A stretch of 26,153 nt of DNA from a virus. The notes below the pieces were generated by a model. The model was given only the letters and a program-made list of their open reading frames with translations, was not told the origin of the DNA and did not search any database. Positions 4,438 to 26,153 of the stretch are shown piece after piece; position 1 is the first letter of the stretch, and the number at the start of each line of letters is the position of its first letter. Position numbers and translations under genes: made by a program. The stretch spans positions 1 to 26,153 of the IMG/VR virus record IMGVR_UViG_3300024355_000069; one strand, given 5' to 3'.

Positions 4438-4871
4438 TTATTATTTCTTTTTACACTCTGTATGTCCAAAGTCCCTGTTTGTAAAGGACCACCGTAATCA
4501 CCGTCAACAACAACATTAGCACATAGTTCACGGAACCAACGATCGACAATTTCTTCGTCCAAATCACCGTCAGCACCATAACCTTCTTGCTTTAATTGTA
4601 GCACAAAATGTTCATTCCAGTCAAGTTCAAAAAAACCGTTACGAACATTGTCTTTGTTTATATGTGTATTTAACACGCCTACCCATGGTTCTTTCTTTCG
4701 AGTAGCACGATCTTTTGGACTCAATTTAGCCAATTCTTGTTCTTGAGCAATTTCTTTTAGGCTATTTTCGGCTTCTTCTTTTAATTTGTTAGCCTGTTCA
4801 AGTGCTAATCTTGCTTCTTCAATGTTGGCTTCGATTTTATCTAAACCAAATAATTTTTTAATAAATTTCAT
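4434..4871 (-). CDS. Conserved hypothetical protein, N-terminal coiled coil
   Basis: 145 residues from the ATG at 4871, which shares a base with the queE stop (TAATG) behind a GGGGA sequence. A GTG 12 bases upstream is a less likely start. After a short amphipathic N terminus (MKFIKKLFGLDK), residues ~12-50 are a strongly predicted coiled coil. A globular C-terminal domain containing KKEPWVGVLNTHI and GFFELDWNEHFV follows. I recognise that domain from marine T4-like phages, function unknown. It sits between queE and the exonuclease, but nothing in the sequence ties it to either pathway. Confidence 0.75.
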   Translation of the reverse strand: MKFIKKLFGLDKIEANIEEARLALEQANKLKEEAENSLKEIAQEQELAKLSPKDRATRKKEPWVGVLNTHINKDNVRNGFFELDWNEHFVLQLKQEGYGADGDLDEEIVDRWFRELCANVVVDGDYGGPLQTGTLDIQSVKRNNK

Positions 4872-5734
4872 TAAGTTCCCCACTCATTTTTAAATAATGG
4901 TACTTGTAGTCTATCACTATAGCGCAAGCCATTTTTCATCGCTAGTTCAGCGACCCTACGATTATTAAGAGTATAAACAGACTCCACCCCACCAACTGGC
5001 ATAAGATATACGGGTCCTGTAAACCCTTCGGCTCTGTAAATGTCTGCTGTTTCAATTGCTTCTTCTGCATCTTCTTCTGTCGCTACTACAAACTTAAGGT
5101 AAGTGTAGCCAACCTCCTCATATTCACATACAATGTCTGGACGAATAGCTTCACTGCGTTCTTCACCGGAACAACTTAGTTTAGCACTTACACTAAATGT
5201 AATTTCTTTATTATATTCTGGATGCGGCATCAACCATTCGATAGAAAGAAATTCTTTAAACTCTGGCGTTAGTTTTTGAGTACCATTAGTTTCAAAGGTA
5301 ATCTCTTTTAAACCAGCCATCTTAGGATGGCGCAACAGATCTGGATAAGCACGTTGCCAACCTAGTAACGGCTCGCCGCCTGTAATGACCAAGTGTTCGT
5401 CCTGCCACTGATTAAATGGAAGGATTTCGCAGATACGTTCTGCAATACCATCTGTTGTAAGCATAGGACTAAGATCTTTAAAACGAGGATCCCAACTAGC
5501 GTAACTATCACAGCCTGTGCTAACAAGCGGAAGTTCTTCGTATTTTGTATAAGGTTTTCTTTCGTGCTGGATAGCAATATCTTCAACTTCTGCACTTAGT
5601 TCGCCCTTTGGCATACCAAAGCCTGCACATTTAAAGTTACAACCAAATGTACGTAAGAAAACAGAAGGCACACCCATAAAGCGTCCTTCACCTTGAATGC
5701 TATAAAATAGCTCTGCGATTTTAATTTTGCTCAT
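4871..5734 (-). CDS. queE: 7-carboxy-7-deazaguanine synthase (QueE), radical SAM
   Basis: 287 residues. QueE converts 6-carboxy-tetrahydropterin to 7-carboxy-7-deazaguanine, using SAM and a 4Fe-4S cluster. The sequence has the family N terminus ELFYSIQGEGRFMG, cluster cysteines C32 and C36 (GCNFKC), a third candidate C75 in VSTGCDSY, and SAM-binding TGGEP at 118-122. Instead of the usual C-x3-C-x2-C, the third cysteine comes after a ~38-residue insertion, a variant I recall from some phage and bacterial QueE proteins. The start at 5734 fits family length. A consensus promoter ends 5 bases before the ATG. With FolE, the QueD-like protein and DpdA elsewhere in the window it forms a deazaguanine DNA-modification pathway. 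Confidence 0.93.
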   Translation of the reverse strand: MSKIKIAELFYSIQGEGRFMGVPSVFLRTFGCNFKCAGFGMPKGELSAEVEDIAIQHERKPYTKYEELPLVSTGCDSYASWDPRFKDLSPMLTTDGIAERICEILPFNQWQDEHLVITGGEPLLGWQRAYPDLLRHPKMAGLKEITFETNGTQKLTPEFKEFLSIEWLMPHPEYNKEITFSVSAKLSCSGEERSEAIRPDIVCEYEEVGYTYLKFVVATEEDAEEAIETADIYRAEGFTGPVYLMPVGGVESVYTLNNRRVAELAMKNGLRYSDRLQVPLFKNEWGT

Positions 5735-9769: not shown

Positions 9770-9981
9770 GTGCGATCCTTTAACCATGCGTCTACTTTTG
9801 CTTCTGCTTCTTCTTGTGTAACAGCATAAGCATAGATCCAAAAACAATCATCTTTACCTTTGATATCAAAAGGAACACTACCGTTAAACAGGATTCCTTC
9901 TTCTAACATACGTTTTACTTCAAATTTCTTTAAATTTCTTGCACGATTAATTAAATCGTTAGCCATGTCTACTGAATTCAT
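9766..9981 (-). CDS. Small hypothetical protein
   Basis: 71 residues coupled by ATGA to the FolE stop upstream and to the cupin start downstream. It has an N-terminal helix (DMANDLINRARNLKKFEVKRMLEE), a short beta region (FWIYAYAVTQEE) and a C-terminal helix (AEAKVDAWLKD). No motif or family recognised. The strict coupling argues that it is a real gene. Confidence 0.65.
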   Translation of the reverse strand: MNSVDMANDLINRARNLKKFEVKRMLEEGILFNGSVPFDIKGKDDCFWIYAYAVTQEEAEAKVDAWLKDRT

Positions 9982-10724
9982 CTTGGGGCAAACTCCTGTT
10001 GTAGTTTAATGTTATCAAAGAATTCTTTCTTTGTACCAGGATCATCTTTAAACGCACCTTTGAGTACGGTGGTCTGTGTAAGACTAGAATGTGCCATAAT
10101 ACCACGATTCTCACAGCATCCGTGTACTGCTTGAATATAAACGCCTAGGTCTCTAGCTTCTGTGGCTTTTTCGATCTCCCGAGCAATGTCATTAGCAAGT
10201 TCCTCCTGGAGAGTACCACGTCGGGCACACCACTGGGCGATTCTTGTGTATTTGCTGAGTCCGATGAGCTTTTGGGCAGCAATAATACCAATATAAGCAA
10301 CGCCAGTAACGGGTTGGTGATGATGGCTACACATACTGCGAAGCTCGCTACGAACAACCAACATACCTTCGTAACGGTCCTCCGAGTCATTTGGAAACGC
10401 TGTTGCTGATGGTTTTGGGTCATATCTTCCTGCCATTATTTCGTTAAAATACATCTTAGCAAGGCGACGTGCTGTGCCTTTACTATTAGGATCGTTTTCA
10501 CGATCAATTAGCAACCGATCAAGCACTAGTTCAAATGCCTCTGTTGCTTCGTCAATTAGTCGTTCTTTATCGCCTTCGTGTAAAAAGTCGCTGATATTAT
10601 CGCCAGCCCAAAAGCGTTTGCCCTCACGTTTCATTTTAAAACGAAGATGATCGCCTAAGTATGCTTCTTCGTAACCACCGTTCCCTGCCATTGCGTCCAG
10701 GGCTGTTTCTTTTTTATCTGTCAA
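9978..10724 (-). CDS. folE: GTP cyclohydrolase I (FolE)
   Basis: 248 residues. Converts GTP to dihydroneopterin triphosphate, the entry step to tetrahydropterins and, through QueD and QueE, 7-deazaguanines. Zinc ligands are visible as C132 and H134/H135 (MCSHHHQPVTG) and the H-x-C at 201-203 (AVHGCCENRGIM). K-L-I-G-L-S-K and RRGTLQEEL are family signatures. It uses a TTG start at 10724 with a well-spaced GGAG; a stop lies two codons upstream, and the next ATG (residue 12) lacks a ribosome site. The ~45-residue N-terminal extension is also seen in bacterial type IA enzymes. Confidence 0.93.
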   Translation of the reverse strand: MTDKKETALDAMAGNGGYEEAYLGDHLRFKMKREGKRFWAGDNISDFLHEGDKERLIDEATEAFELVLDRLLIDRENDPNSKGTARRLAKMYFNEIMAGRYDPKPSATAFPNDSEDRYEGMLVVRSELRSMCSHHHQPVTGVAYIGIIAAQKLIGLSKYTRIAQWCARRGTLQEELANDIAREIEKATEARDLGVYIQAVHGCCENRGIMAHSSLTQTTVLKGAFKDDPGTKKEFFDNIKLQQEFAPR

Positions 10725-13951: not shown

Positions 13952-15502
13952 TTATTCAACTTTAAGATTATCTAATGCTTCGTCTTCTCTATCATCAGTC
14001 CAAGAAGTTTCATCTTCTGATTCTTCATAGAACAATGTATCTGCAATGTTAGTAACACCGCCACGTAGTCGAGCACCTTCTAAGTTCTGTAAGAAACCAA
14101 GTCGTTCAGCTTCTGCAATCATAGTAAATGCTTCATCTTTAGTTTTAAGAGCAAACAATTCTTCAACAAACTGATTAAAGTACAAAATATTACGAGGTAC
14201 CCATTCCGAACGTTCATCGCTCTTATCGTTGTCTTTTACTTTACGCCAGTGTCTCCAATCTGGTTTGTAACTAGCGTATTCAATATCTGCAAGATTGTTT
14301 GCACGTTGAACAGCACGAATATGACATTCAACATTATGACCCATCATTAGAGCATAAGCAAAACTATCCCAACTAGTTTTACCTTCCTTGCCAATCTTGT
14401 TTAACATTCCTGGAGCATAGTGGCAGATATCCGCGACCGTAAGTCTCCTACCAAAATCGGACTCGAAAGGAAAAGGTATATCGTGCCGTCCGGCAAGACC
14501 CTTATTGTCCGGGGCTTTATCCATGATAACACTGAATCGCTTATTGGTATGTTGGGCGTTAGTATATACCAATCCGTGAGCTGTTGCGATGAAAGGTGAA
14601 GCGCAGTCAAAGGAAATTGTGAAGTTTTCATTTACGTGTTTTCTAATTTGACGTTGAATGCTTGTTAAGTAACAAGCCCAATCCAGCTGTGCGGTACCCA
14701 AGAAGTGCATCCAATCCTTGCCTTCTAGCATACCATCAAAACGCATAGTGATTAGTCTGCGTAGTGTAATAGGCATTTTGCACATATTAGCACCACCCAT
14801 AGCCCAACCTTCTGCGGCTTTGTCTCCATACTTGTTTGTATCGGAATATTCTTTTACACCCTGGTACCACGCTTCTGCGTTTTCCCAGTTGCTACCTTGT
14901 AAAACATTTAATAGCTTAGTGCCGCCTTCTTTGGCACCTAAACGATTTTGAATAAAGTATTCGTTATTAAAACGAGTCTTTTCTAAACAATCTTCAAACG
15001 ATTTTAATCCTGTCTTTGGGCTGTGAATGTGATCACAAGCCCATGTCGGAACGTCTAGCATCATTGACCAATCAGCAGTTACGTCTAACCAAGTTAAAAT
15101 CTTTTCGCGAGTTTTATTTGCTTCAGTACCTTCAAAGTTTTGCCAGTCAAACTTAATAACACCTTTACCGATCTGATAACCGCCTGAATCTCCTAAGATC
15201 ATTGTCTTTGAACGATCACGCTGTTGAATCATAGATTCTTGCGTCATAGACTTAGTAATGTCTAATTGAGCATGACCCGCTGAATACAAGGCAAATTTAT
15301 AATAAAAATATCCTTGTTCGGGATTTAAAAAATTCATACCTTCAATACCGCGATCAAAGTCTTTAGGAATGCGGTCATCTGGAATAAATTTTTCTAAACG
15401 TTGTTTTGCAACGTATGTAGAATAGAAAGAACTAATAGCTGGTAAGTATACCGCATAGTCCTTTTGTAGTGGTGTTAAATCAACTGGTGGTTGTTTCTTC
15501 AT
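13952..15502 (-). CDS. dpdA: DpdA-like DNA guanine transglycosylase (TGT-related)
   Basis: 516 residues. DpdA enzymes replace guanine in DNA by a 7-deazaguanine, by a mechanism related to tRNA-guanine transglycosylase. Visible TGT-fold sites are D-S-G-G-Y-Q (105-110, substrate-base Asp), L-Q-G-S (201-204), G-G at 236-237 in GWAMGGANM, and S-F-D-C-A-S-P (297-303), where D299 aligns with the TGT nucleophile in its F-D-C-x-x-P motif. The C-terminal zinc cysteine set of tRNA TGTs is not seen, consistent with the DNA-acting branch. The start has GAGAGA upstream and overlaps the previous gene by 23 bases. With FolE, QueE and a QueD-like protein here, DNA base replacement is the best reading. A tRNA substrate cannot be excluded. 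Confidence 0.82.
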   Translation of the reverse strand: MKKQPPVDLTPLQKDYAVYLPAISSFYSTYVAKQRLEKFIPDDRIPKDFDRGIEGMNFLNPEQGYFYYKFALYSAGHAQLDITKSMTQESMIQQRDRSKTMILGDSGGYQIGKGVIKFDWQNFEGTEANKTREKILTWLDVTADWSMMLDVPTWACDHIHSPKTGLKSFEDCLEKTRFNNEYFIQNRLGAKEGGTKLLNVLQGSNWENAEAWYQGVKEYSDTNKYGDKAAEGWAMGGANMCKMPITLRRLITMRFDGMLEGKDWMHFLGTAQLDWACYLTSIQRQIRKHVNENFTISFDCASPFIATAHGLVYTNAQHTNKRFSVIMDKAPDNKGLAGRHDIPFPFESDFGRRLTVADICHYAPGMLNKIGKEGKTSWDSFAYALMMGHNVECHIRAVQRANNLADIEYASYKPDWRHWRKVKDNDKSDERSEWVPRNILYFNQFVEELFALKTKDEAFTMIAEAERLGFLQNLEGARLRGGVTNIADTLFYEESEDETSWTDDREDEALDNLKVE

Positions 15503-20032: not shown

Positions 20033-20830
20033 TTACTTTTGTGCTTCGGATAACACATCATACATTTCAAATACACCGCCCATTCTTTCATATACTAGCC
20101 CGGCATATAGATCTGCTTTCATTCCTTCACCTAGTTTAGATTTAGCAACACGCTCAGCCCAGGCAAATAATTCTTTGTCTTTTGGATCAATTTGTTGTTG
20201 ACCGCCGCTTTCTTGTACTAGTTTTACCATGTCTTTGAAAGATAGTTTTGTTTCAACTGATTCTGCAACTACTTTCTTAGAAGTTTTTACAGATTCGTTT
20301 TTCTTACCAAAGTATTTTGCTTGTTTAGCACTCATACCTTTCTTGCCATCTTTCTTGTCGCCGCCTTTCTTTTTATCTTTAGCAGCTTTCTTCATTGGTT
20401 CTTTTTTGTCACCGTCACCGTCGATGTCTGCAAAATCTGGCTTACCCTTTGCAGCTTCAACCATCTTACTAAATTTAGACTTGAACTCAGGATCAATAGA
20501 CTCGTCTTTCTTTTTCTTATCTTCTTTTTCAGCTTGTTTTCCACTATAGCGATCACCCGCTGTATGTTTCAAACCAGTTTTAGTTTTTTCTGCTGTACCG
20601 CCACTAGCTGTTTTTTTCTTGTCGCCTACTTTAGCATCGGCATCAAAAACTTCATCCATCTTTTCATCAGCTTTTTTCTTAGCTTCTGCAATATATGATG
20701 AAGTACCTGCTAGCACACGTAATTGTGCATCTTCGTTAAGCTGAACAGCTTTTGGTAATTCTGGAGCTTTTGGTAGATCAACTTGATCGTTTAAGCTATG
20801 AATTTTAGTAAGTAATGATTTGAAGTCCAT
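20033..20830 (-). CDS. Lysine-rich putative capsid-internal protein
   Basis: 265 residues, extremely Lys/Asp/Glu-rich in the middle (KKKADEKMDE through KKGGDKKDGKKGMS). The acidic loop DFADIDGDGDKKEPMKKA recurs in cyanophage virion-associated proteins. The N terminus MDFKSLLTKIHSL is a short amphipathic tag. Several [ILV]-x-E|[ADGS] sites occur (LNE|D at 33, IAE|A at 49, VAE|S, VQE|S, LSE|A near the C terminus), as in substrates of the T4 prohead protease. A compact C-terminal helix bundle (KELFAWAERVAKSKLGEGMKADLYAGLVYERM) looks folded. A role as a scaffold/core or DNA-packing internal protein is inferred. It follows a late-type promoter and ends at the terminator. Confidence 0.7.
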   Translation of the reverse strand: MDFKSLLTKIHSLNDQVDLPKAPELPKAVQLNEDAQLRVLAGTSSYIAEAKKKADEKMDEVFDADAKVGDKKKTASGGTAEKTKTGLKHTAGDRYSGKQAEKEDKKKKDESIDPEFKSKFSKMVEAAKGKPDFADIDGDGDKKEPMKKAAKDKKKGGDKKDGKKGMSAKQAKYFGKKNESVKTSKKVVAESVETKLSFKDMVKLVQESGGQQQIDPKDKELFAWAERVAKSKLGEGMKADLYAGLVYERMGGVFEMYDVLSEAQK

Positions 20831-20868
20831 GTTTGAGTCCTTGTATCCTGTATAAAGATCCTATAATA

Positions 20869-20876
20869 TATTTATC
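20869..20876 (-). promoter_or_regulatory. T4-late-type promoter -10 (GATAAATA)
   Basis: Minus strand GATAAATATATTATAGG in the gap before the lysine-rich protein. A start ~6 bases downstream leaves a ~35-base leader with AAGGA before the ATG at 20830. It shares the 11-mer GATAAATATAT with the site at 2660-2667. It overlaps the stop region of the upstream 85-residue gene. Confidence 0.55.
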
Positions 20877-21129
20877 TTTTTATGGCAGAGCCGCCACCGA
20901 AGATATTAGTTTTCATATCTAGGGCATTTTTAGCTGTACCGTCCTTATTTTTTGCTTGTTTTACTTTAGGAACTGCTGGTGCTTTTGTACCAGATTTGCC
21001 TGGGCTACCTGTGTAGCTTTTATTTCCACGATCTTTTCCTATAGCAATATGAGGGCTAACAACCGTGCCGATATTAGCCGATGATGTTGCTCCTGCTGTA
21101 GCTGATTCTAAAATATCACGTATTTTCAT
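20872..21129 (-). CDS. Small basic modular protein, probable virion component
   Basis: 85 residues. It starts with the tag MKIRDILES, nearly identical to MKISDILEH of the protein at 23098. The next segment ATAGATSSANIGTVVSPHIAIGKDRG is a Gly/Ser-rich module I recognise in T4-like marine phages. The rest is basic and low-complexity (SYTGSPGKSGTKAPAVPKVKQAK). I-L-E|S at residues 6-9 fits a prohead-protease site. Basic, disordered and tagged, it resembles a packaged internal protein; no enzymatic domain. No clear ribosome site precedes the ATG. Confidence 0.68.
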   Translation of the reverse strand: MKIRDILESATAGATSSANIGTVVSPHIAIGKDRGNKSYTGSPGKSGTKAPAVPKVKQAKNKDGTAKNALDMKTNIFGGGSAIKR

Positions 21130-21135
21130 AATATA

Positions 21136-21336
21136 TTATTTATTCTTTCCGCTTTTCATATTTGCACACCAGTGATACATTTTAGATTTCTCACCCGATG
21201 CATTTTTTGCACGTTTGCGTAGATCAGTAACTGAACCAGAACAACTAGCCCCTGAACGTTTTACTCTTCCGGGGCGGCTTTTTCCTTTAACTTTTCCGTC
21301 AGCAAAGTTTTCTATAACAAACTCTTTAGCTCTCAT
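21136..21336 (-). CDS. Small basic Cys-containing protein (RPGRVKRSGASC family)
   Basis: 66 residues. After a tag-like start (MRAKEFVIENFADG) comes RPGRVKRSGASCSGSVTDLRKRAKNASGEKSKMYHWCANMKSGK, a module I recognise as widespread in environmental T4-like phages. It is strongly basic, with C32 and C58 and His57 conserved-looking. DNA binding inside the capsid is plausible but not shown. Coupled by ATGA to the nucleotidase/GH19 fusion gene. Confidence 0.72.
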   Translation of the reverse strand: MRAKEFVIENFADGKVKGKSRPGRVKRSGASCSGSVTDLRKRAKNASGEKSKMYHWCANMKSGKNK

Positions 21337-22502
21337 CTCATTGCTACCTGGAAAGCCTGATGCTTTTCTTTTCTAGAGTCTAAATGTTTAAGCCCGGGAT
21401 TGATAGTTTTAGTAACCGCTTTAGTATCTTTAAAACTATCAATTTTTGGTGCTACTCTATTTTTCCAATACCAAACTGCTACTTTAGCAGCAATTTCTGG
21501 TTTTTCTACAAGTTCGGGTTTTTGCTCTAACGGCAATCCTAATGCTTGGCCTGCTTTCTTATAATTGTCTCGACCTGTCAGCTGTATGTATCCGCGACCT
21601 TTATATTTTGCTCCGTCTCCAACATTTTTATTACCCAATGCTTTTGCTTTTTTAGGAGCATATTTAGGATCATATTTTCGAAAGTCTAATGATCCGCCTA
21701 TTTCTTTCATGTGTTTAAAATCTAAAGTTTCGTGAGCGCATTGTGCTAAAAACGCTGTAAGCTCGTGACCTACTATACCTGCTTTTTCAGCAGCCTTTTT
21801 TAAGTAGACTTCGTGGGGATTACCGGTTACGCTTTTTGCAATATCTTTTTTAGATACCTGTTGAATAACATCCGGTTTAGAATGTTTAGCATTAGCATCA
21901 CTAGGAGCACCGAATGCCATTGCAGTTCCTAGTGCCCCGGCTGCTGCCCAGTCCTTCCATCCCTCGTCAACTTCTCCCTTAGCAGCAGTTTTTAATGCAG
22001 AAAAGACTTTAGATAAACTATCTTCGTCTGCTTGATACTTAATAGCAATACCGCCCGCTTGTTGCCAAGCACGAATGTTTACACCGTAATCGTCAATAAG
22101 AATATTAGGAGTACCGTCAGCATTTTTTGCATATTTGTATTTTTCGTGTTCGAATATAATTTTGTCAGCAGGAACATGAATATGTTTTTTCAGCCATTCA
22201 CGTTTACCTCTAATGCTTCCTTCTTTATCAAAGTTTAATGGGCTGCTTAAAATATTATAACCACCTGCATAATCAACTACTATGCTTAAAAGTTTATTAG
22301 CAGTAGAAAATGCCGGAAGGTCACGAAATAATTCATAGGCATTAGAGTCTTTAAAAAATGTTTCCCATTGATCTTTTGTCATTTTATTGTAGTGCTCTAC
22401 ATCATGTAAACCTCCTACATGATTAAAAAGATCAGCAAGGACTCCGTCCATATCAACATAGACTTTCATTCCTTTGGGTAAACTAAACTCTTCTGCTCTC
22501 AT
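21333..22502 (-). CDS. Fusion of 5'(3')-deoxyribonucleotidase-like HAD domain and GH19 lysozyme-like endolysin
   Basis: 389 residues in three parts. Residues 1-11 ([11 protein letters not shown]) are tag-like. Residues 12-175 are a HAD phosphatase of the deoxyribonucleotidase type: D-M-D-G at 17-20, S-S at 86-87, basic R-G-K-R-E-W-L-K-K near 98-106, and I-D-D-Y at 136-139. Residues 181-205 are a Trp/Ala-rich hydrophobic stretch ending S-D-A-N-A, like a signal peptide but internal. Residues ~225-389 are a GH19 chitinase/lysozyme fold with A-H-E-T (candidate catalytic E258), YKGRGYIQLTGRDNY and a final helical region. V-D-E|G at 178-181 between the halves is a prohead-protease-like site. The first domain would dephosphorylate deoxynucleotides, the second cut peptidoglycan. 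Confidence 0.85.
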   Translation of the reverse strand: MRAEEFSLPKGMKVYVDMDGVLADLFNHVGGLHDVEHYNKMTKDQWETFFKDSNAYELFRDLPAFSTANKLLSIVVDYAGGYNILSSPLNFDKEGSIRGKREWLKKHIHVPADKIIFEHEKYKYAKNADGTPNILIDDYGVNIRAWQQAGGIAIKYQADEDSLSKVFSALKTAAKGEVDEGWKDWAAAGALGTAMAFGAPSDANAKHSKPDVIQQVSKKDIAKSVTGNPHEVYLKKAAEKAGIVGHELTAFLAQCAHETLDFKHMKEIGGSLDFRKYDPKYAPKKAKALGNKNVGDGAKYKGRGYIQLTGRDNYKKAGQALGLPLEQKPELVEKPEIAAKVAVWYWKNRVAPKIDSFKDTKAVTKTINPGLKHLDSRKEKHQAFQVAMR

Positions 22503-22573
22503 ACTGGACTATATGGATTTAGAGGACGATCCCATTCGCCTTCTTGTGGTGGATAAACAGGATACTCGTTCAT
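22499..22573 (-). CDS. 24-residue Pro/Tyr-rich microprotein
   Basis: A tiny frame fits exactly between two genes with ATGA overlaps on both sides (22573 with the Fe-S carrier stop, 22499-22502 with the fusion gene start). The product begins [14 protein letters not shown], has five prolines and three tyrosines, and ends in NPYSPV. The perfect double coupling in an otherwise unexplained 70-base gap argues for translation. No function recognised; it may instead serve mainly to keep ribosomes moving into the downstream gene. Confidence 0.55.
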
Positions 22574-22893
22574 ACTGCAAAACTACTTCCACAACCGCAG
22601 GTTGTTACTGCATTAGGATTTTTGATAGTAAAACTTGATCCCATTAATTCTTCTTTATAATCTATCTCTGCACCGTGTAGATATTGCATACTCATTGCGT
22701 CAACTAATACTTTCCATGCACCGCAATCAAATTCAAAGTCATCTTCGTTTTGTTCGTCGTCAAAGGTAAAGCCGTAACTAAATCCACTACATCCGCCACC
22801 TTGTACAAAGGTACGAAGTTTTAAATTAGGGTTTCCCTCTTCAGAAAGCAAATCTTGAATTTTTATTTTTGCTGATGGTGATATTGTAATCAT
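22570..22893 (-). CDS. A-type Fe-S cluster carrier (IscA/ErpA/HesB family)
   Basis: 107 residues, normal length. The three cluster cysteines are in place: C35 in [11 protein letters not shown] and C99 and C101 in the C-terminal TTCGCGSSF. These proteins deliver Fe-S clusters to apo-enzymes in the cytoplasm. HesB-like genes are common auxiliary genes of marine T4-like phages. QueE in the same window needs a 4Fe-4S cluster, but the carrier is in the late-type block, so a direct partnership is uncertain. The ATG has AGGA upstream. Confidence 0.92.
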
Positions 22894-22894
22894 T

Positions 22895-23098
22895 TTATTT
22901 TCCTACAGGTTTTTCTCCGGTTAGATAAGGAAGACTGAACCATAATTGAAACCATTCCGGAGTACCTGGTTTAATATTATGTTGTTTCATAAGTTCGCCT
23001 TTTTCGTTTCCAGTAATACTTATGTTGCTGCCGTCGTAAGGTTGATAACCTTTAAATTCGGTAATACCTGCAAGACGTTTTAGTTCAGATAAATCCAT
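22895..23098 (-). CDS. Small tagged hypothetical protein
   Basis: 67 residues from the ATG at 23098, which shares a base with the upstream stop (TAATG); longer frames start at non-ATG codons inside the previous gene. It begins [14 protein letters not shown], an amphipathic tag of the kind seen on the neighbouring proteins, with I-T-E followed by F. The remainder ([34 protein letters not shown]) is a module I recognise from marine T4-like phages, function unknown. Confidence 0.68.
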
Positions 23099-23724
23099 TA
23101 TGCTGTGGCTGGTTCGCCTGTACGAGAAACTTCCCATTTCTTGCCAGTCTGTTCAGTTTTCTTACGGCACATGTCTTGCAATCTACGAAGCTGAGCCATT
23201 TCTCTGTGATCGTCTGCGTATGTTCCTTGACCAGGAAACACTTTCCATTTTTTACCGTTGATATAGATAGCAAAGTTATTTGGTGGTTCGGTGTTGCCCT
23301 CGTCCCAATCATCTTCTCTATTTCTACGTCCAAATCCGCTTACGCTACTATCGTAATCTCTTTGATAAGCATCACGTCCAAAACCTGATTCTTTCATAGG
23401 ATCCTTTCCTGCCTGTACTTTTTTATACCATGAAATTAATTCAGCATCACTAGCAAGTTCAAGATAGTTTATTTCCCAGTCCATCTTTTTAGCTAAGAAT
23501 TGAATAATTTGTTGTCTTTTAGATCTATCTAATAAACCTTCTGTTACTTCTGCTGGTTTTTTATGTTTTTCATATCCTTGTTTTTGTGCCTTCTTCATAT
23601 CTTTATGAGCACCGGCACCTGAGATAACACTTTGTGCAGCATGAGCTACAGGGTTTCTAGGTTTGACATTATACACTTTTGCTCTTCGGCTTTTCTTATG
23701 TTCTAATATATCAGATATTTTCAT
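23098..23724 (-). CDS. Modular probable virion-associated protein
   Basis: 208 residues. Modules in order: tag MKISDILEH; basic segment SRRAKVYNVKPRNPVAHAAQ to ~58, recurrent in T4-like cyanophages; V-T-E|G cleavage-like site (~60-63); helical segment LDRSKRQQIIQFLAKKMDW; acidic/aromatic linker with two S-G-F-G-R repeats; and a C-terminal NNFAIYINGKKWKVFPGQGTYADD...KTEQTGKKWEVSRTGEP domain that also recurs in such phages. No enzyme motif. The shared tag and protease-like site suggest packaging in the capsid. ATGA overlap with the upstream gene. Confidence 0.75.
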   Translation of the reverse strand: MKISDILEHKKSRRAKVYNVKPRNPVAHAAQSVISGAGAHKDMKKAQKQGYEKHKKPAEVTEGLLDRSKRQQIIQFLAKKMDWEINYLELASDAELISWYKKVQAGKDPMKESGFGRDAYQRDYDSSVSGFGRRNREDDWDEGNTEPPNNFAIYINGKKWKVFPGQGTYADDHREMAQLRRLQDMCRKKTEQTGKKWEVSRTGEPATA

Positions 23725-26153
23725 GATGATCTCTTTTGTTTAGGACCCTTACGAGTTTTCCATTTTTTATCAGTGGAACACCAATAGCGTCCATATCCTT
23801 CTTTTACTTCTTTCTTTTTAGGATAACCGTGTTTTATTTCTAGTTGATAACCCTGTAATCCTTGTTTATCTAAAACCTTACTAATAAATTCTTCGGCTTC
23901 TTTCGCAGAAGAAAATTTATCACCTAAATTATATTTCCTCATTTCGCCATCGATCATTACATAGGCAATAGTAATAGGTTTGACTGGTTCTTCTGCCGCC
24001 TGTGCCGGACTTGCTAATAAATTAGCAGCAGCTAAAGCTGCGCCTGCCGTTTTACTTTTCCAACCTTCTTCAACGCTATCAATCATTGGATCAATACCGC
24101 GACTTCGGATTCCACCTTTTCTTCTTACTTTAGCAAGTTCTTCTAAGGCATGACGAATTTGTTCTACATTCATTTTAAGTTCGTCAAATTGTTTGGCCAT
24201 GTTTTGCCATTCGTATGGACTAGCATTGTCTACTCTGCTAGCAAGATCTTTAATTTGTCCAGCTGCTCTCATCATTCTATATTTTAACTTCGCTGGGTTG
24301 GCTTTGTCATGGCTATGAATCATAGGATTCATTGGTTCGGAAGGATCCATTTCAATCGGTGCTTCAGATATGCTTTCTTGAATACCCATGCCCTTGCGTG
24401 TGAAATCCATTAATTTCATAATCCAATCTTTCCCTAATTTTTGAACATCAAAACCTTGAGACCATAATGCAAATTGCTGTTCTGGAGTAGCATTAGGATC
24501 TTTTAAAATGTTACGTAATTTAGTAAAACTCATTCCAGTTCCGCCAGTTTCGGCAGCTCTTGGTGTAACTTCTACATCAAATTTAACATGTTCAAATCCT
24601 GGATATTTAGGATTCTTCATCCTTTTAGATAAATGCTCCATCCATTTTTTAAATCCTTCATATCGATCTTCGCCAACCATAACAATGATATGATCGTATG
24701 GAGGAGGATTACTTGATGTTACTAATTCTTTTTCAATTTTTTTCATAACTAATCCACCTTCTTGGATCAGCTGGAACATGGCCTTCTTTTCTGGATATAA
24801 TTTTTGCCATGTTTGTAATTTAACAGAAGCTGGAATAGGATCGTCTGGTCCCACGGCACTACTAATATAAACATAAGGATCAGCATTTAACTGAGACGCT
24901 TTGTTTAAAACAAAATCTACAAGTTGTTGATGTCCAATGTGCCCAACAAAACTTCCTGCGGTAACGACAGCAGTTTTGCCCGATCTTCCATCGCCTGTTG
25001 CTCCAGGAGGTCTTGCAGATTTAATTGCTGCGTTTTTTGCAGAAATAATATCTTTTTGTTCTTGACTAGTAATTTTAACAGGACCATTCTTTGTGTTAAG
25101 AATAATGCCTTCATAATCTTTGCCTAACTTATCCTTTCCTATAATATCTGGATGTTGGATGATAAATTTTGCTAGATATTCTTTGACAGGCTGCAATGCT
25201 TCGGTAGCTTCTTTTTTAAGATCTCTTTTACCGCTATTAACTAACGATCGTAATGTTTCAAGATTTTCAATGGGAGGCAATGCCCCAGTTACATCTAAAC
25301 TGCCGTTAGTAGTTAACGAGTTGTCAATGAACATTGTTGTTCCAATGCGACCAATTTTTCTCAATGCAGAGATGTATTTGTCGCTATTTGGATGTTGTTC
25401 GCCAGTTGAGCTTTTTTCAGCAAACAATGGCACAAGTGCTAGAGTAACACCTTCGGGCAACTTGTCATAATGTATGCCAACAAATTTTAATTTACCATCT
25501 TCTGTTTCAGTAGCAAATGGTAGATATAAAACTTCACAATGAATTTTTACATCATTGAGAGCGGTATTACCTAATTTTTGATCAACGTTAGCAATGACAT
25601 GCATCATCTCGTCGTATAGATCATCAAATAACTTAGCCCTAGCTTTTACATCTGGAGCGGCTTGTCTTTCTTCAGCATGTTTGCTGAATGTACCAGGTTC
25701 AAACTTAGGACCACTACGACTAGTTTCCATATATGGTTTGCCAGATTTATCTTTACCAAACCTAGCACCAAACCCGTCTACTTTAACGGTCATTGGAACA
25801 TTGTGTAATTCAAATTTTCCTGTTGCTGAATTTTTTAATTCGTCTAATAAATTTAAAAAATCAGAATCCTTCATTTTTTCTAAATGAACAATTCCTTTTC
25901 TTTTACTTTGTACTACTTCGGCTTCGTTAATACTTTCGGATACTTTGTAACTTGCTTTATAATCTTGACGCATTTGTTCAAGATTTTTATGAGGTGTAAC
26001 GTTTAAAGTTTTTAATGCATAGTTAAGTGCTGTATTTTTTTCTAAGATATCTCTTTCAGGATCGCCTTTATATAATCCTTGTGCGCCAGGAGCATATAGC
26101 TTATCAATAAATGCATCAATGACTTTTTCCTTTTCATCCTGAGGAACAACAAG
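23721..26153 (-). CDS. Large multidomain protein: ligase-like nucleotidyltransferase plus cytidylyltransferase-like domain (N terminus outside window)
   Basis: The frame is open to the right edge, so 810 visible residues lack the true start; the ATG at 25973 (used here as residue 1) is internal. K64-V-D-G67 followed by FGARFG, H-C-E-V-L-Y (145-150), D-Y-E-G-I-I-L (286-292) and V-K-I-T (299-302) match motifs I, III, IV and V of ATP-dependent nucleic-acid ligases. Residues ~334-525 form a nucleotidylyltransferase with G-H-I-G-H (344-348) and S-F-T-K-L-R (482-487). Then come an acidic linker, a helical region, an internal hydrophobic AxA segment (~642-660) and a W-C-S-T-D-K-K-W-K tail. Protease-like sites occur at VSE|S, INE|A, IQE|S, ISE|A, VEE|G and VKE|G. 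Substrates are unknown. Confidence 0.8.
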   Translation of the reverse strand, partial: LVVPQDEKEKVIDAFIDKLYAPGAQGLYKGDPERDILEKNTALNYALKTLNVTPHKNLEQMRQDYKASYKVSESINEAEVVQSKRKGIVHLEKMKDSDFLNLLDELKNSATGKFELHNVPMTVKVDGFGARFGKDKSGKPYMETSRSGPKFEPGTFSKHAEERQAAPDVKARAKLFDDLYDEMMHVIANVDQKLGNTALNDVKIHCEVLYLPFATETEDGKLKFVGIHYDKLPEGVTLALVPLFAEKSSTGEQHPNSDKYISALRKIGRIGTTMFIDNSLTTNGSLDVTGALPPIENLETLRSLVNSGKRDLKKEATEALQPVKEYLAKFIIQHPDIIGKDKLGKDYEGIILNTKNGPVKITSQEQKDIISAKNAAIKSARPPGATGDGRSGKTAVVTAGSFVGHIGHQQLVDFVLNKASQLNADPYVYISSAVGPDDPIPASVKLQTWQKLYPEKKAMFQLIQEGGLVMKKIEKELVTSSNPPPYDHIIVMVGEDRYEGFKKWMEHLSKRMKNPKYPGFEHVKFDVEVTPRAAETGGTGMSFTKLRNILKDPNATPEQQFALWSQGFDVQKLGKDWIMKLMDFTRKGMGIQESISEAPIEMDPSEPMNPMIHSHDKANPAKLKYRMMRAAGQIKDLASRVDNASPYEWQNMAKQFDELKMNVEQIRHALEELAKVRRKGGIRSRGIDPMIDSVEEGWKSKTAGAALAAANLLASPAQAAEEPVKPITIAYVMIDGEMRKYNLGDKFSSAKEAEEFISKVLDKQGLQGYQLEIKHGYPKKKEVKEGYGRYWCSTDKKWKTRKGPKQKRSS

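Follow-up and report, generated by a model that had tools for sequence, protein, structure and literature searches.

A signal-peptide-like segment behind predicted prohead-protease sites in tagged cargo proteins of a T4-like phage

Introduction

Bacteriophage T4 brings internal proteins into its head by means of a short N-terminal tag, the capsid targeting sequence (CTS). Packaging of the internal protein IPIII needs the first 10 residues, of which residues 4 and 7 act in targeting and residues 8 and 10 in processing, and the prohead protease gp21 cuts after L/I-x-E (PMC9026906). Since such a tag has already been proposed as a device that may let T4-like phages take various proteins into their heads (PMC9026906), the general idea of a cargo tag is not new. 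The DNA analyzed here, 26,153 nucleotides of a virus (IMG/VR record IMGVR_UViG_3300024355_000069, positions 1 to 26,153; hereafter the window), carries a block of genes for proteins with starts of this kind. Two of these proteins, of 389 and 1133 amino acids (aa), further contain a module in which a predicted prohead-protease site is followed directly by a signal-peptide-like segment. The module is the new element, T4-type cargo tagging being already known. What is said of cited papers refers to excerpts of them.

The closest described system is the CTS of the T4 proteins IPI-III and Alt, which has in common with the present one a short tag, hydrophobic positions followed by aliphatic-x-Glu, a diverse and often basic cargo, and a gp21-family protease (PMC9026906). 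In contrast to T4, many more kinds of cargo are met here, some of them multi-enzyme proteins with internal sites, and a signal-peptide-like segment stands behind an internal site. We know of no such segment in the T4 internal proteins. In phage P1, an N-terminal signal likewise sends a large protein, DarB, into the head; that signal is longer, the first 30 residues being sufficient, and no module of the present kind is seen in the excerpt (PMC9024508). In the head ejection proteins of SPN3US and phiKZ, a gp21-like protease also cuts C-terminal to Glu, and ejection has been deduced; several of their propeptides exceed 100 residues, and the excerpts describe no export signal (PMC5694885, PMC9026906). 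Cyanophage virions contain enzymes such as nicotinamide mononucleotide adenylyltransferase (NMNAT), S-adenosylmethionine (SAM) hydrolase and a kinase; the nucleotidyltransferase is homologous to one encoded here, and virion-detected copies have T4-type starts. The excerpts of the cyanophage papers name virion carriage or contamination as explanations and make no mention of tags. Finally, signal-arrest-release (SAR) and signal-peptide endolysins are wall hydrolases that are likewise taken through the Sec route. They carry their signal at the N terminus and use it in the lysing cell, whereas the segment described here is internal, follows a predicted prohead-protease site and would come into play in the next host.

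Results and discussion

Copies and composition of the module

The 208-aa and 389-aa proteins of the window are 100% identical in a longer IMG/VR record, 3300024503_000485 (219,444 bp; hereafter G001). Five 60-base probes from the window map as expected to the plus strand of G001, with G001 position = window position + 181,633. Gene starts come from a simple custom caller and are predictions, some of them wrong. The two module-bearing proteins comprise the following features, in which a slash marks a predicted cut.

21333..22502 (-): 389-aa cargo protein with tag, NT5C deoxynucleotidase domain (PF06941, E 2.4e-9), site VDE/G, signal-peptide-like segment and GH19 hydrolase (PF00182, E 8.8e-13)
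22476..22502 (-): its tag MRAEEFSLP, without a cut Glu
22035..22463 (-): NT5C domain, residues 14-156 (Pfam)
21963..21965 (-): predicted P1 residue Glu180 of VDE/G, invariant in 20 aligned proteins
21888..21962 (-): signal-peptide-like segment GWKDWAAAGALGTAMAFGAPSDANA, then K
21441..21767 (-): GH19 domain, residues 246-354 (Pfam), with H257, E258 and E267 invariant in 20 proteins
23721..26153 (-): 1133-aa multi-enzyme protein truncated at the window edge, with a cytidylyltransferase-like domain and a C-terminal module (full gene G001:205354-208755)
24066..24068 (-): predicted P1 residue Glu1019 of VEE/G
23997..24065 (-): signal-peptide-like segment GWKSKTAGAALAAANLLASPAQA, then AEE

These two proteins, otherwise dissimilar, have VDE/GWKDWAAAGALGTAMAFGAPSDANA and VEE/GWKSKTAGAALAAANLLASPAQA in common. 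The module, which consists of [ILV]xE/GWK, an Ala-rich segment and AxA, is shuffled among cargo proteins and lies anywhere from residue 12 to beyond residue 1000. Copies were counted as GW[KRD] followed by a hydrophobic stretch free of Asp, Glu, Lys and Arg, with any residue allowed before GW, and over all loci Glu precedes 75 of 76 distinct copies. Because two of the scans held Glu in the search pattern (one in one of its six patterns, the other in its sole pattern), a fair count was confined to the loci of the other scans and the genomes. In this set Glu precedes 32 of 33 copies, the 33rd, from a 5232-aa protein, being a chance match; P3 is I, L or V in 26 of the 32; and AxA starts 15-28 residues on in 27 of the 32, against 15.2 (standard deviation 2.9, maximum 22) in 300 shuffles. 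Glu accounts for 6.8% and I/L/V for 19.6% of residues in the background composition. One genome of the fair set, G003, was itself chosen through a locus from a Glu-pattern scan, and the charged-residue filter drops some copies seen by eye (loci L270, L272 and L310, each after Glu). Over all copies, I/L/V stands at P3 in 61 of 75 and AxA is present in 68 of 75, the last AxA ending 23-25 residues past the cut in 58 of 75. An earlier unbiased pattern, W[KRDEN] followed by a hydrophobic stretch and AxA, had matched 61 stretches, 45 of them after EG; among the other 16, L094 and L109 resemble the module behind LDE/VS and the rest appear chance-like.

Signal-like segments also occur behind [ILV]xE in general: in tagged proteins they follow 65 of 1287 sites and 17 of 1287 positions drawn at random, in untagged proteins 99 of 8876 sites and 62 of 8876 such positions; among the 45 matches listed, part of the untagged cases are mis-called tagged proteins. 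The segment behind the internal site had been missed in an earlier reading of the window from its letters alone (the sequence-only reading).

The segment has the layout of a Sec signal peptide: position 3 is Lys or Arg in most copies, the core consists of Ala/Gly/Leu, and AxA stands about 24 residues on. It is not a typical membrane anchor, since none of the 75 modules reaches 1.6 in a 19-residue hydropathy window. Nor is it classed as an ordinary signal peptide, because it is internal in the copies listed and would become N-terminal only after the predicted cut. A secretion signal that is buried, that would be freed only by the prohead protease, and that would lead to export of the enzyme into the periplasm of the next cell is a possible reading, to which we give slightly less than an even chance. 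Alternatively, the tags and cuts may be real while the segment serves as an amphipathic or packing helix (for core, shell or DNA) or as a membrane-touching aid to injection rather than as an export signal. The weak hydrophobicity of the segment would suit such a helix, as would the few copies (e.g., L028, L086 and L026) that end in AAYDAYK without a clear AxA. An AxA at the near-fixed distance given above, in excess of shuffles, and a wall hydrolase behind the segment in 52 of 75 copies argue otherwise, and we consider the helix unlikely.

Proteins ahead of and behind the module

The sequence before the module Glu varies widely. Ahead of the module stand an NT5C nucleotidase, a cytidylyltransferase, basic stretches, or the tag alone; in the shortest forms (L177, L178, L071 and L106) a 13- or 14-residue tag leads directly into E/GWK, and minimal forms read MFLNELFEKDVDE/GWKDW..., MRAAEFITPQELEE/GWKDW... 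and MRINEIIIESELDE/GWKEK.... Tag-like starts, as judged by a loose rule, are found on 60 of 75 module proteins, compared with 380 of 2821 other proteins. The 15 that fail the rule include five with mis-called starts inside the cytidylyltransferase domain (L047, L066, L070, L076 and L112) and three whose tag-like starts the rule misses (L172, L298 and L337); seven show none. Behind the module lies a GH19 domain in 52 of 75 copies (eight of these with LysM), one of two kinds of small domain in 13 and 6, and no recognized domain in four. Pfam confirms GH19 in the window protein and in L099, L107 and L158.

In the AlphaFold model of the 389-aa protein (mean predicted local distance difference test score, pLDDT, 74.4; predicted template-modeling score, pTM, 0.45), pLDDT falls below 50 only at residues 1-3 and 177-214, and the latter form an unstructured stretch between the folded nucleotidase and GH19 domains. 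Foldseek gave 16 matches at E <=0.001, each of them either a GH19-type enzyme or a phage protein with that fold; deoxyribonucleotidases rank lower. Glu258 and Glu267 we take to be the GH19 catalytic pair.

As phage GH19 enzymes are usually endolysins, and as secreted and SAR endolysins exist (PMC7143992), the GH19 proteins might be ordinary lysis enzymes or fusion by-products, the segment a relic of a secreted endolysin, and tag and cut irrelevant. G001 encodes, separately, the following cassette.

G001:214038-216533 (-): lysis cassette with untagged GH19 endolysin, holin-like and spanin-like genes

The untagged endolysin matches phrog_181 (E 2.6e-75), the holin-like gene PF11351 (E 1.2e-6), and the Rz-like spanin gene is matched weakly (E 1.8e-4). 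Relatives of this endolysin occur in five of five genomes and tagged GH19 proteins in four of five; the exception is G002, in which no tagged GH19 was found and a module precedes a different domain. Given the untagged endolysin of G001, the role of lysis enzyme need not fall to the tagged hydrolase. Against a lysis origin speak also the Glu kept ahead of the segment (32 of 33) though the preceding domains differ, and the 19 of 75 modules that lead domains other than GH19; we regard this origin as quite improbable. The N-terminal signal-anchor and lysis-enzyme role of SAR endolysins likewise do not describe the module proteins, in which the segment is internal and beside which a separate endolysin cassette is present. 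G001 and G004 each encode a further protein with GH19-like stretches, of 1077 and 895 aa, respectively.

Outside the collected loci and genomes, a 27-aa module query gave no match among cultured phages, a result of little weight given the shortness of the query, and a scan of genome contigs gave 76 pattern matches, none a confirmed relative. Within the open-access literature (subscription papers lying outside this scope) we found no description of a prohead-protease site followed by a signal peptide.

N-terminal tags

The other genes of the block are these.

20033..20830 (-): 265-aa Lys/Asp/Glu-rich protein, start MDFKSLLTK, with six [ILVM]xE/small sites (63 aligned members)
20872..21129 (-): 85-aa basic protein, tag MKIRDILE/ then SATAGATSSANIGTV
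21058..21108 (-): stretch resembling the major capsid protein (MCP), residues 8-24 of the 85-aa protein
21136..21336 (-): 66-aa basic protein, tag MRAKEFVIE/NFADGKVKGKSRPGRVKR
22570-22893: iron-sulfur (Fe-S) protein, untagged
23098..23724 (-): 208-aa protein, tag MKISDILE, basic DUF7230-like part, site VTE/G at codon 23539-23541

The sequence-only reading had noticed recurring starts on otherwise unrelated proteins, and four T4-type starts indeed stand in the block: MKIRDILE/S (20872-21129), MRAKEFVIE/N (21136-21336), MRAEEFSLP (21333-22502), in which Pro occupies the position expected for the cut Glu, and MKISDILE (23098-23724). Similar starts elsewhere in G001 are MRAKEFIQE/S, MRAQEFITE/A, MKTFREYLAE/S, MRLNEFITE/D and MKIKDIITE/N. 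Two of the six starts that it had quoted are not this tag: MDLSELKRL has no tag features, and MDFKSLLTK is conserved within one family, that of the 265-aa protein (MNFHELLTK being the start of another G001 protein). The Fe-S protein, whose gene also lies in the block, is untagged, and a supposed 750-aa protein had been read from an internal start, its true length in G001 being 1133 aa and its true start, outside the window, MKLLELFYKRNNLPLIE/GG.

The IPIII tag has Tyr and Phe at its targeting positions (Y4 and F7). The corresponding T4-type pattern, hydrophobic at the Y4/F7 positions and then aliphatic-x-Glu, fits MKTFREYLAE and MRLNEFITE. MRAKEFVIE is one residue shorter and has Ala at the first position; MKISDILE and MKIRDILE are shorter by a further residue and fail the written T4-type rules. 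A search for the pattern MKIxDILE in the window record gave 0 matches.

The enrichment of the tag that the sequence-only reading had anticipated is found in four of the five genomes. With a T4-like tag rule, G001 has 7 of 221 N termini against 5 of 1002 windows at internal Met residues (p 0.002), G004 5/170 against 2/791, G003 6/197 against 2/855 and G002 7/315 against 5/1339, all significant; G006 shows no enrichment (1/120 against 2/590, p 0.43). With two tag rules fitted post hoc, the matches number 149 and 53 of 2503 N termini, compared with 5 and 0 of 12,045 internal-Met windows. The 2503 are distinct proteins of at least 50 aa from the fetched loci and five genomes, 119 of 2622 called proteins having been dropped as shorter or as beginning at a locus edge. 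When proteins were clustered on residues 21 onward, tagged members appeared in 14 of 478 clusters, the largest of which (522 proteins) is held together by shared modules; at 40% identity over 75% of length, 201 tagged proteins fall into 77 groups.

Predicted prohead-protease sites

G001 is recognized as a T4-like phage by its genes for a gp21-family protease (PF03420, E 9.8e-26) and for a capsid protein of the gp23 family (PF07068, E 3e-98; MCP gene G001:117175-118344 (-)). The tagged genes had been described as a capsid-protein block. This is incorrect, because the gp23, gp21 and scaffold-like genes sit at 117-121 kb of G001, whereas the block of tagged genes sits at 202-209 kb.

The proposed abundance of [ILV]xE/[AGS] sites in the block holds. 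Its six proteins have 17 sites where composition predicts 5.7, and 11 tagged G001 proteins (including the 265-aa MDFKSLLTK protein and the whole 1133-aa protein) have 26 where 8.6 are expected, a threefold enrichment. MCP and two scaffold-like proteins together have 15 (5.8 expected), the other 207 G001 proteins 166 (146 expected), and the MDLSELKRL and Fe-S proteins jointly 0 (0.5 expected). The six sites originally quoted exist: IAE/A, VQE/S and LSE/A in the 265-aa protein, VTE/G in the 208-aa protein, VDE/G in the 389-aa protein and VEE/G in the long protein. In the 265-aa family the whole motif is kept at its six sites in 53, 52, 62, 62 and 60 of 62 members and in 19 of 60, and Glu conservation averages 0.97 at the sites compared with 0.71 at 16 other Glu residues (p 0.005). 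These values refer to a wide family rule with 63 members; a narrower MDFKSLLTK rule gives 10 members, with site Glu kept at 0.62-1.00 and other Glu at 0.50 on average. The enriched and conserved [ILV]xE/small sites are thus predicted to be substrates of a gp21-type prohead protease.

The sites had also been placed at domain borders, which is partly so. The long protein has three consecutive enzyme-like regions, and cuts are predicted after its tag (LIE/G), at the first junction, behind the third region and before the module, with two pairs of sites in the window:

25923..25937 (-): VSE/S and INE/A, between the first and second enzyme-like regions
24363..24377 (-): IQE/S and ISE/A, behind the cytidylyltransferase domain

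Not every site of this protein is at a border, because E557 and E788 fall inside regions. In relatives of the long protein (L332, L334, L335 and L337) the site at the tag end is kept (LLE/G, LME/G, VLE/G), and an E/A site near the first junction is present in four of five family members compared, L334 being without it. Xanthomonas phage X1 has two adjacent separate genes, one for a relative of the second region (25% identical, E 3e-11) and one for a cytidyltransferase, and in Stenotrophomonas phage YB07 the same two enzymes are apparently separate neighboring genes, which fits a fused protein that is taken apart by a protease.

The 85-aa protein links cargo and capsid in another manner. MCP N termini of all five genomes read KYL[AS]E/SATAGATSAGNVATL, and SATAGATSSANIGTV of the 85-aa protein, directly behind its own predicted cut site, copies the predicted mature MCP start (SATAGATSAGN...). 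After the predicted cuts the two proteins would start with nearly identical residues, and to judge from this capsid-like stretch the 85-aa protein likely sits on the inner shell where the N-terminal arm of MCP itself binds. Members of its family were picked by the tag, the stretch behind it being left free; most of the 38 distinct members listed have the MCP-like stretch, and L073 and L162 are clearly without it.

Tagged relatives in cyanophage virions

Published virion proteomes were available for three cyanophages with homologous cargo. In S-CREM2, 52 virion proteins were reported among 219 annotated genes (PMC10665884). With a strict rule drawn from the T4 literature, fixed when the S-CREM2 N termini had already been seen, five of eight tagged proteins are virion-detected by annotated starts, compared with 47 of 211 untagged (p 0.020); without 24 named structural proteins the counts are 5/8 and 23/187 (p 0.0018). 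The five are a SAM hydrolase, a kinase, a cytidylyltransferase and two hypothetical proteins. With custom-called starts four of eight are detected (p 0.17), and the first tag rule gives p 0.057. The link is not significant in S-SZBM1 (PMC9146016), with 1/5 (p 0.61; called starts only, 1/3, p 0.43), or in S-SCSM1 (PMC9602691), with 1/6 (p 0.73); for the latter the GenBank record carries 48 virion labels against 45 counted in the paper.

One cargo enzyme is both tagged and virion-detected in all three phages, namely the cytidylyltransferase/NMNAT, which begins MKNFSSFLTE/A in S-CREM2, MRFRQFIIE/A in S-SZBM1 and MKSFLQFLKE/A in S-SCSM1. L067, a tagged and module-bearing relative of the block cargo, is 40% identical to the S-CREM2 protein (E 3e-38) and 39% to the S-SCSM1 nucleotidyltransferase (E 2e-44), and the cytidylyltransferase-like domain of the window (phrog_3041, E 1.7e-15) belongs to the same PHROG as the virion-detected relatives. 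Packaging of the nucleotidyltransferase cargo is thus supported by published proteomics of distant relatives; the S-CREM2 authors allow that virion enzymes may be contaminants (PMC10665884).

That convergence or shuffling produced the recurring N termini, which would then have a role other than targeting, and that [ILV]xE is simply common in Glu-rich proteins, would agree with the lack of a genome-wide virion link in S-SZBM1 and S-SCSM1 and with the quoted starts that do not fit. It conflicts with the internal-Met-window and composition-shuffle controls, with the tags on virion-detected cargo of relatives, and with the agreement with the mapped T4 tag, and seems to us very improbable. The tags are best read as T4-type cargo loading, seemingly in wider use than in T4, because gp23 and gp21 are present, the starts resemble that of IPIII, site enrichment is common to cargo and MCP/scaffold, and relatives are detected in virions. 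The general cargo system proposed in the sequence-only reading is to that extent supported by the T4-type tags, gp21/gp23 and the nucleotidyltransferase relatives in three of three virions, but not by a genome-wide link between tag and virion, which appears in one of three.

The Cas9-like virion protein of S-CREM2 (L240, OR473000, 7704-10313 (-)) has a tag-like LRFASFMAE/A at residues 17-25 of the annotated protein. A start at this point is unsupported, the Leu codon being CTG with no good ribosome site seen ahead. Methylophilales phage Melnitz-3 (L248) has the T4-type starts MQGFKTFLSE/A, MKKFSEIIE/A (before a cytidylyltransferase) and MKNFKNHIAEE, and a separate NT5C gene.

Proposed route of the cargo

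From the tags, sites, module, domains and conservation described above, we infer cleavage, injection, unmasking and export in the following order. The short N-terminal tag would bring a protein into the prohead core, where a gp21-type protease would trim tags and cut multi-domain cargo at [ILV]xE/small sites between domains, and the pieces would be injected along with the DNA. At the module the cut would fall directly ahead of G-W-K, so that the Ala-rich segment would form a newly exposed N terminus laid out like a Sec signal peptide; uncut, the segment would be internal and silent. The next host would then export the attached domain, most often the GH19 wall hydrolase, to its periplasm, where the hydrolase may make a local opening in the wall or target other phages or the envelope. 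Such a buried signal would keep the enzyme harmless in the producing cell. Traded among cargo proteins and joined to cytoplasmic enzymes across the cut, the module would allow one gene to serve two compartments. Taken as a whole, this account of tagged head cargo, in which a cut at E/G unmasks a signal peptide and the enzyme is exported in the next host, is one that we judge evenly poised between right and wrong.

Several observations weigh against it. P3 is not I, L or V in 14 of 75 modules and AxA is absent from seven of 75; in the smallest subset (genomes and two locus sets) the AxA contrast is weak, at 9/12 versus 5.8 in shuffles. The 10-residue hydropathy of the segments, 1.35-2.05, is below the 2.44-2.86 of four N-terminal signal peptides of the same phage (picked by eye), and Asp often follows Lys in the segment. 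The module copies are not independent events, because they are homologous, and the EGWK core may be conserved as a unit. Tag and virion detection associate in one of three cyanophages, there only with annotated starts, and we found no proteomics, cleavage or export data for the window phage or any module-bearing phage.

If the account is true, phage heads deliver pre-programmed enzymes to two host compartments, and maturation of the head and arming of the cargo are the work of one protease. The account would also provide a sequence rule by which injected proteins, now mostly annotated as hypothetical, could be found in T4-like phages known from metagenomes only, and a testable route by which a phage could bring a chosen protein into the periplasm of a laboratory strain. 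The tags would offer a simple reading for the enzymes repeatedly met in cyanophage virions, which the papers, as excerpted, could not separate from contamination.

Other features of the block proteins

The stretch MRAKEFVIE/NFADGKVKGKSRPGRVKR of the 66-aa protein is fused ahead of GH19 cargo in relatives, e.g., in L158 (442 aa, start MRAKEFITENFADGKVKGKSRP, LysM and GH19). The 208-aa protein matches DUF7230 at E 2.1e-5, short of the curated cut-off, and was found at 33 loci, several of which align only from residue 21 on, excluding the tag. Pfam and PHROG searches with the 265-aa protein gave no match.

For the long protein, Pfam gave no match to the first region and a chance-level match only to the second, for which a sequence search of the PDB likewise gave chance-level matches only. 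Modeling of the full 1133 aa gave a poor structure (mean pLDDT 53.8), with which a fold search found no match at E <=0.001. From the motifs GDID, KVDG and EGII, the first two regions are presumably a pol-beta-like nucleotidyltransferase and a KxDG ligase core. Parts of the C-terminal tail of the long protein reappear in other tagged proteins.

Elsewhere in the window, genes that look by eye QueE-like (4871-5734 (-)), FolE-like (9978-10724 (-)) and transglycosylase-like (13952-15502 (-)) were noticed, a Pfam search with the last giving no match. From the look of these genes, the phage DNA may be modified with 7-deazaguanine.

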